From: Kineococcus mangrovi
GTDB lineage: Bacteria; Actinomycetota; Actinomycetes; Actinomycetales; Kineococcaceae
DNA length: 64,000 nt
Direction of reading: 5' to 3'
Assembly: GCF_041320705.1 (NCBI RefSeq)
Contig: NZ_JBGGTQ010000005.1
Coordinates: forward strand, 248,001 to 312,000
Shown: positions 45,312-50,519 of the stretch, piece by piece
How positions within the stretch are numbered: position 1 is the first letter of the stretch
Layout: each line of letters starts with the position of its first letter
Made by a program: the position numbers and the translations under genes
Notes under the pieces: model-generated
What the model saw: only the letters and a program-made list of their open reading frames with translations
Told to the model about the DNA's origin: nothing
Databases searched by the model: none

Positions 45312-45329
45312 ATGGAGTTCTGCTCGTGA
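45312..45329 (+). CDS. Leaderless five-codon uORF upstream of the ABC exporter
   Basis: TAGCGT (45300-45305) is followed by 6 nt and an ATG that encodes Met-Glu-Phe-Cys-Ser and stops at TGA 45327-45329. The stop overlaps the exporter's GTG as GTGA. The same architecture occurs at uppP. It is likely to couple or gate translation of the exporter; the product itself may be irrelevant. Confidence 0.5.
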   Translation: MEFCS

Positions 45330-49215: not shown

Positions 49216-49524
49216 ATGACGCCCGACCCGCGCGCGGCCCTGGCCCGACTCGTGGCAGCCCTCGAGGACCACCTCGCCGCCGCCGCCAACCGGCGCGGTG
49301 AGACCGACCCCGCCGTCGCCGACGCCTACCAGCGCGTGGCGGACGCCTTCGAGGTGTACGAGGAGGCGATCTACGACGCGTACGACGAGGTCACGCCCTT
49401 CGTCCTCTACGACGACGTCGAGGACGAGCGCGAGGACGAGCGCGAGGACGACGACGAAGACGACGAGGACGACGAGGACGACGAAGACGACGAAGACGAG
49501 GACGAGGGCCCCGCACCCCTCTGA
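49216..49524 (+). CDS. Conserved actinobacterial protein with long acidic tail
   Basis: 102 aa. The first 65 residues (AALARLVAALEDHLAAAANRRGETDPAVADAYQRVADAFEVYEEAIYDAYDEVTPFVLYDD) are well conserved in actinobacteria, where the protein is sometimes mislabelled primosomal protein. The last ~30 residues are almost pure Asp/Glu, encoded by imperfect GACGAG/GACGAC repeats (49420-49505) that could vary in copy number. ATG 49216 follows TACGGT (49204-49209) by 6 nt, so it is probably leaderless. Function unknown. Confidence 0.8.
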   Translation: MTPDPRAALARLVAALEDHLAAAANRRGETDPAVADAYQRVADAFEVYEEAIYDAYDEVTPFVLYDDVEDEREDEREDDDEDDEDDEDDEDDEDEDEGPAPL

Positions 49525-49611
49525 CCGTCGCGTGTGAGGGTTCCGTGCGGCCCCGGTGACGTGCCGGGTCGCCGGGCGGTGGCCTCCGGGGTGGCCCGAT
49601 AGCGTTCGGCC

Positions 49612-49674
49612 GTGCTCACCCCCAGTTCGCGCGTCATCACCCCCTGCCCGCCGACGGGGGGTGCCCCGGCGTGA
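49612..49674 (+). CDS. Leaderless 20-codon uORF upstream of uppP
   Basis: TAGCGT at 49600-49605 is followed by 6 nt and a GTG that opens a 20-codon frame ([12 protein letters not shown], then PPTGGAPA). Its TGA (49672-49674) overlaps the uppP GTG as GTGA. Position, spacing and the overlap argue for a translated leader peptide coupled to uppP. It contains one Cys and five Pro. Confidence 0.55.
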
Positions 49675-50519
49675 GCATGGGCGTCCTCGAGGGTGCGTTC
49701 CTCGGGCTGGTGCAGGGGCTGACGGAGTTCCTGCCCATCTCCTCCAGCGGCCACCTGGCCATCGTCGGCACGCTCGTCGGGACGCAGGACCCCGGTGCGG
49801 CGTTCACCGCCATCAGCCAGCTCGGCACCGAGGCGGCCGTCGTCCTCTACTTCCGCCAGGACATCGCGCGCATCATCAGCCGGTGGGTCCTGTCGCTGAC
49901 CGGCCGGGTGCCGCGCGCGGACCCCGACGCCCGGATGGGCTGGCTCGTCATCCTGGGGACCATCCCCATCGGCGTCCTCGGCCTGCTCTTCCAGGACGCG
50001 ATCGAGACCACGCTGCGCGGGTTCGTCGTCATCGCCACGACGCTGTGGGTCTTCGCCCTCGTGCTCGGCGCGGCCGACCGCTTCGGTCGCAAGCAGCGGA
50101 CGCTGGACCGGCTGACGTGGAAGCACGGCGTGCTCTTCGGGCTGGCGCAGTCGATGGCCCTCATCCCCGGCGTCTCGCGCTCGGGCGGCACCATCTCGAT
50201 GGGTCTGCTGCTCGGGTACACGCGGGAGGCGGCTGCCCGCTACTCCTTCCTGCTGGCGATCCCGGCGGTCGTGCTGTCGGGCTTCTACCAGCTCTACGAC
50301 GAGGTGAGCACGGGCGCGGCCATCGCCTGGGCCCCCACCGCGGTGGCCACCGTCGTCGCGTTCGCGGTGGGGTACGTCGTCATCGCCTGGCTCATGCGCT
50401 TCATCACCACGCACAGCTACACCGTGTTCGTCGTCTACCGCATCGCCCTGGCCGCCGTGGTCTACGGCCTCGTGCTCACGCAGGTCCTGCCGGCGTGGCA
50501 CGGCACCAGCTTCGGCTGA
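49671..50519 (+). CDS. uppP: Undecaprenyl-diphosphate phosphatase UppP (BacA)
   Basis: 282 aa integral membrane phosphatase. [20 protein letters not shown] is the family's N-terminal motif and [36 protein letters not shown] the second active-site block. It recycles the undecaprenyl lipid carrier for peptidoglycan synthesis; overexpression in other bacteria gives bacitracin resistance. GTG 49671 has GGGGGG upstream; ATG 49677 is an alternative. A leaderless uORF ends over the start codon. Confidence 0.96.

Follow-up and report, generated by a model that had tools for sequence, protein, structure and literature searches.

The window, a stretch of 64,000 nucleotides from a contig of Kineococcus mangrovi, carries uppP (bacA) and, immediately ahead of it, a short upstream ORF (uORF) whose stop overlaps the uppP start codon. 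The features of this locus are as follows.

49600..49605, + strand: -10 box TAGCGT of a presumed leaderless promoter, kept as TAGNNT in 11/11 family orthologues
49612..49674, + strand: leaderless uORF of 20 codons plus TGA, with its GTG start as presumed +1 (from sequence and conservation)
49656..49663, + strand: Shine-Dalgarno (SD)-like GGGGGGTG of uppP, within the uORF (from sequence and a predicted anti-SD duplex)
49671..49674, + strand: GTGA, the uORF stop overlapping the uppP start codon; RTGA is found here in 11/11 family loci
49671..50519, + strand: uppP (bacA), undecaprenyl-diphosphate phosphatase, 282 aa (from Pfam and NCBIfam)

The downstream gene is identified as uppP/BacA by Pfam (BacA, E 6e-83) and by the NCBIfam model for undecaprenyl-diphosphate phosphatase, which it matches above the cut-off. 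The homologue search for uppP gave one match at E<=0.001 in the host genome. Second, distant BacA-like genes (L011-L015, 42-44% identical to uppP) occur in genomes G001, G002, G005, and G009 (two in G009), and genes of this type were not found in the host genome. An earlier, sequence-only reading had described a -10 box, a 6-nt spacing, a GTG, 20 codons, and a GTGA overlap, and this description proved correct at every coordinate. The 6-nt gap separates TAGCGT (49600-49605) from the uORF GTG (49612-49614), and the uORF stop TGA (49672-49674) overlaps the uppP start GTG (49671-49673). The 20-aa peptide contains one Cys and five Pro, as had been reported, and the Gly-Gly close to its C-terminus is the coding sense of GGGGGGTG. 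A second possible uppP start, an ATG at 49677 (two codons on), is ATC in locus L016, so the RTG at 49671 is taken as the conserved start.

No -35 element was recognisable upstream of the -10 box and none was common to the 11 aligned family promoters; a sigma-70 scan that requires the -35 consensus returned no promoter at the uORF. A scan of the uORF region gave no terminator-like site. In an Rfam search of 49300-49800 (E<=1), no family reached its cut-off, and the sole match (a snoRNA on the opposite strand, inside uppP) was far below the cut-off and was taken as chance. Further upstream, TGTGAGGGTTCCGTGC is located at 49533-49548, 63 nt before the uORF; it is unique in the genome, also when one mismatch is tolerated, and five Kineococcus relatives (L002, L004, L005, L006, and L008) carry it as TGTGAGGGTTC(C/G)GTGC. 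It may be the site of a regulator or an element at the end of a gene. An ORF of 102 aa (49216-49524, + strand), whose long tail is rich in Asp and Glu, lies directly before uppP and had no match in a Pfam search. GACGAGGAC stretches, like those of the 102-aa ORF, are also present before uppP in L005 and L008.

The usual distance between a -10 box and a leaderless start was examined with a home-made gene caller, which called 586 genes in 800 kb of genome G004 and 270 genes in 400 kb of the window's contig. TANNNT was located 6 or 7 nt before candidate gene starts at 28 sites in G004 and 16 sites in the window's contig, as compared with 0-3 sites at any other single spacing. The 6-nt spacing of the uORF equals this leaderless spacing of the genus, which serves as a proxy for an RTG at the transcription start. 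Since the -10 spacing matches the genus rule of 6-7 nt, the uORF GTG is predicted to be the likely 5′ end. The complete uORF layout appears to be rare ahead of other genes, with 2/586 cases in G004 and 2/270 in the window's contig at 6-8 nt, counts that are lower bounds because the caller missed the window's uppP, where a spurious opposite-strand ORF won. The two cases in G004 are uppP and one doubtful call, and a further census with other limits found 2 cases in each stretch at the same spacings. The window may contain one more leaderless mini-ORF, at 45312-45329 (+ strand), where TAGCGT is followed after 6 nt by an ATG and a 5-codon ORF (MEFCS) ending 2 nt before the in-frame ATG of an ORF that resembles an ABC transporter by eye.

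In the Kineococcus family (Kineococcus and one other genus), uppP is present in 10/11 genomes of the genus and 11/12 genomes of the family, the family genome without a match being an assembly of about 1060 contigs. Conservation in related genomes, proposed earlier as a check on the uORF, was borne out. The whole layout (TAGNNT-N6..8-GTG and an ORF ending RTGA on uppP) was detected in 11/11 family orthologues, and 39/50 Geodermatophilaceae loci show TANNNT, 6-8 nt, GTG, an ORF of 16-39 codons, and a stop within -7..+4 of the uppP start. In the former family, the -10 box and the uORF GTG are 6-7 nt apart in all ten loci of Kineococcus and 8 nt apart in the other genus; a -10 box 6-8 nt before uppP itself was observed in 0/11 loci. 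The uORFs of the 11 family loci have six distinct lengths (20 codons in six loci, and 23, 29, 31, 32, and 35 codons in the others), and the frame relative to uppP is kept in all of them.

For the Geodermatophilaceae, a family label assigned through a 100% match to a Geodermatophilus query, 57 genomes were searched, of which 55 had a uppP match, with 63 places listed; the statistics use 50 places, one per genome. Besides the 39 loci with the layout, uppP itself is located 8 nt after the -10 box in 6/50 loci and no such promoter is found in 4/50 (L209, L212, L213, and L214). In the one remaining locus, L160, the promoter and the GTG are in place, but the ORF has 6 codons and its stop falls 28 nt short of uppP. 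The uppP gene of L160, a natural exception to the layout, has a purine-rich GGTGGGAGAGGAAGAG ahead of its ATG. Twelve further places comprise one with a uORF (L305), six without such a promoter (L301-L304, L306, and L307), and five distant homologues (L308-L312) unscorable by the anchor used; a weak fragment in G586 was left out of this reading. Over 62 places in total, a uORF is present in 40, neither a uORF nor a leaderless promoter in 10, and 5 are unscored. When both families are considered, 50 loci show the layout, and the uORF is 16-23 codons long in 42 of them.

This layout is beyond chance. In dinucleotide shuffles of the 160 nt upstream, it arose in a mean of 0.05/11 loci in the Kineococcus family (max 2; real 11/11) and 0.03/50 in the Geodermatophilaceae (max 1; real 39/50). 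At other -10-to-GTG spacings, the layout was absent from the real loci, except for 3/50 at 12-14 nt. Frame tests were based on the 51 loci with a promoter-GTG pair (11 of the Kineococcus family and 40 of the Geodermatophilaceae). The GTG frame stops at uppP in 50/51 loci, as compared with 0/51 for each of the +1 and +2 frames. Premature stops occur in 1/51 cases in frame 0 versus 20/102 in the other frames (Fisher p 0.002), figures that, like the other counts, are descriptive and not strict probabilities because the loci are related and the counts non-independent. When uORF interiors were shuffled (2000 trials), the stop position was retained in a mean of 5.8/40 Geodermatophilaceae loci (max 10). 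The same shuffle gives 9.9/11 by chance in the Kineococcus family and is uninformative there because any ORF in the right frame meets a stop in the GTGA of uppP; support in that family rests on frame and spacing. In the Geodermatophilaceae, the stops are scattered over -7 to +4, and therefore no single fixed tetramer imposes them.

The encoded peptide behaves differently from its reading frame. Synonymous and nonsynonymous changes were compared in 54 overlapping pairs of related loci whose uORFs have equal length (uppP stretch >=80% identical, uORF body >=55%), with the start codon and the last six codons excluded. The uORFs gave pN 0.311 and pS 0.306, compared with 0.059 and 0.232 for 90 codons of uppP, and the changes by codon position were 191/196/185 in the uORFs and 343/228/955 in uppP. 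The 55% floor removes the most diverged pairs, which biases the comparison towards conservation, and still no conservation of the peptide was seen. Cys is present in 29/51 uORFs, at shifting places, and absent in 22/51, and some of these Cys residues belong to a Gly-Gly-Cys encoded by the SD (GGGGGTGC). Pro occurs in all 51 peptides (1-8 each). Thus, the uORF peptide evolves neutrally; the position and openness of the uORF are conserved, and its product is not.

It is probable, in our judgement, that the uORF serves as a leaderless leader cistron and supplies uppP with ribosomes by termination-reinitiation, constitutively and not as a sensor. Briefly, the -10-only promoter would start transcription at or beside the G of the GTG at 49612, and a ribosome would initiate at this 5′-terminal GTG without a Shine-Dalgarno sequence. 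About 20 arbitrary codons would be translated up to termination at the TGA (49672-49674). Reinitiation would then occur at the overlapping uppP GTG, presumably aided by GGGGGGTG just upstream, and the degree of coupling is likewise presumed. Selection would retain the start at the promoter, the open frame, and the stop on the uppP start, with the peptide as a by-product.

An ordinary leadered uppP, transcribed from near 49612 and initiated at its own SD, with the uORF little read or without effect, appears unlikely, though it has some basis in the sequence: high G+C content lengthens chance ORFs, and the SD-like sequence at 49656-49663 is strong. The predicted SD/anti-SD duplex, calculated with anti-SD letters that we assumed, has -14.8 kcal/mol here and a mean of -10.9 kcal/mol in the 11 family loci. 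However, such a gene would leave unexplained both the frame and stop position of the uORF (50/51 loci in frame 0 and none in either other frame) and the leaderless spacing in all 11 family loci. The layout also persists in the Geodermatophilaceae, where SD-like pairing is weaker and differs between loci (mean -8.1 kcal/mol, range -14.0 to -2.6). Since uppP has a good SD-like sequence itself, independent initiation at uppP may carry much of its expression alongside the ribosomes delivered by the leader cistron.

It was also proposed in the sequence-only reading that the Cys and Pro codons could stall ribosomes and thereby regulate uppP. A regulatory leader of this kind, in which stalling tunes uppP to a signal, or translation of the uORF does so by opening a hairpin that masks the SD, seems quite improbable. 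The RNA of the window does pair CACCCCC with GGGGGGTG, but this fold does not stand out from shuffles (z -1.46, 19/200 shuffles at least as stable). Nor is the SD-masking hairpin conserved beyond shuffles over the 51 loci: the openness of the SD and start is 0.28 in real versus 0.29 in body-shuffled RNAs for the 11 family loci and 0.35 versus 0.34 for the 40 others, and no conserved fold hiding the uppP SD was found across the 51 loci. Pro is universal among the peptides, although G+C content favours Pro codons, and a Cys that is found in little more than half of the uORFs, at shifting places in a neutral peptide, argues against a stalling signal. The attenuator or stalling class was therefore rejected, as neither conserved regulatory codons or arrest residues (Cys 29/51, pN close to pS) nor a terminator or SD-masking alternative structure (fold, scan, Rfam, and openness tests) was detected. 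Of the earlier proposal, the leaderless start and the coupling are well supported by conserved geometry and frame, with the transcription start as a prediction, while regulation by Cys/Pro stalling is abandoned. Single Cys or Pro codons appear to be poor ground for inferring stalling signals. A small protein acting in trans is scarcely credible, for although the uORF is probably translated, its residues show no purifying selection and the 50 loci with the layout encode unrelated sequences of 16-39 codons.

If the uORF is such a ribosome-delivering leader cistron, its relation to uppP genes that are themselves leaderless is of interest, and genus g194 of the Geodermatophilaceae contains both arrangements. 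Among the main uppP loci of its eight genomes, a uORF is present in two, L171 and L198 (the locus of G580, also listed as L313), and uppP is leaderless in six. In a full-length protein tree with Kineococcus outside, the eight loci form one clade (99/98), in which the six leaderless loci make up a nested inner clade (98/93) and the two uORF loci diverge before it. Second uppP copies of three g194 genomes (L301-L304) form a separate group (100/99) and have no leaderless promoter; these closer second copies have the start GTGAG and may overlap the end of the upstream gene. The branching suggests that the uORF probably came first and the leaderless uppP later, so that one genus would show the uORF giving way to the gene's own leaderless start. 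Because of this nesting, a 5′-terminal start via a mini-ORF and a direct one seem interchangeable. No deletion event can be claimed, since the sequences upstream of the leaderless uppP genes show no straightforward alignment with L171.

The occurrence of both types in other actinobacteria was surveyed in named loci, using the best 80 matches listed, an uneven sample from which 8 were dropped (one Kineococcus duplicate, six titled non-actinobacterial, and one lacking the uppP start) to leave 72. Among these best matches listed, uppP is located 6-8 nt after TANNNT in 26/72 (Arthrobacter and relatives, Klenkia, Occultella, and Curtobacterium) and a leaderless-type uORF is present in 10/72 (Geodermatophilus, Blastococcus, Amycolatopsis, and Embleya). 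A long ORF has its stop at the uppP start in 6/72, none of these types is seen in 29/72 (15 of them Streptomyces), and 1/72 had no anchor. A class-wide extension of the layout was cut back, as the automatic uORF label (54/173 distinct loci) is unreliable outside the two families. For example, L120, L129, and L143 have 12 codons of similar sequence that seem to be the tail of a preceding gene, and the labels of L180 and L219 (56-58 codons), L137 (8 codons), and L066 (also a leaderless uppP) are doubtful. Plausible but isolated uORF loci outside the two families are L017, L105, L106, L113, and L228. A quick tree (LG+G4, with 10 rows under half filled) gave 15 label changes, doubtful rows included, and its figures were not used. 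It is tentatively suggested, as a possibility and little more, that the uppP genes of many actinobacteria are tied to 5′-end (70S-type, SD-independent) initiation, either directly or via a length-constrained neutral cistron, and hence follow leaderless initiation capacity. If true, lipid-carrier recycling by UppP would track this capacity, for example when stress lowers SD-led initiation.

Small ORFs of a similar kind have been described in mycobacteria. The 'coupled' leaderless ORFs reported there have an RTG at the leaderless start, are 5-50 codons long, and overlap the following gene as RTGA (Shell et al. 2015, PLoS Genet, PMC4633059), and, according to the main text of that article, their leaderless start and linkage are conserved while their primary sequence is not. 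The same main text contains no mention of uppP, Rv2136c, undecaprenyl, or bacA. Mycobacterial Cys-rich leaderless uORFs, located before cysA2 and other genes, were proposed in the same article as attenuators with conserved peptides (PMC4633059); the uppP uORF is likewise leaderless and ahead of a gene, but its peptide is neither conserved nor Cys-rich. In a review, short ORFs are said to 'deliver' ribosomes to a downstream start by translational coupling (PMC12548453), a general concept that describes the same role as the one proposed here; its passages on delivery give no uppP example. Among the literature matches listed, with most subscription papers outside their scope, no title concerned a uppP leader ORF, and none was found that joins undecaprenyl pyrophosphate phosphatase and uORF. 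By title, matches for uppP and leaderless dealt with bacteriocins or antimicrobial peptides, and those for Kineococcus and leaderless were off topic.

The uppP uORF, as a case predicted from its conserved geometry, adds to the 'coupled' leaderless small ORFs known from mycobacteria. With these it shares, as far as they are described in the main text of PMC4633059, a length within their range (20 codons in this Kineococcus), a GTGA overlap with RTGA in 11/11 family loci, and a linkage that is conserved while the peptide is not. It differs in its place, at uppP in Kineococcus and the Geodermatophilaceae, and in being known from sequence alone; in addition, the layout has been traced through 50 loci, and the neutrality of its peptide was tested. 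In the Geodermatophilaceae, the stop often lies 1-7 nt before the uppP start, unlike the overlapping RTGA type of Shell et al. The mycobacterial layout would thereby reach further actinobacteria and a gene of the cell envelope, and the two families appear to provide a clean comparative case of a leaderless uORF that is kept for its position alone while its peptide drifts neutrally.
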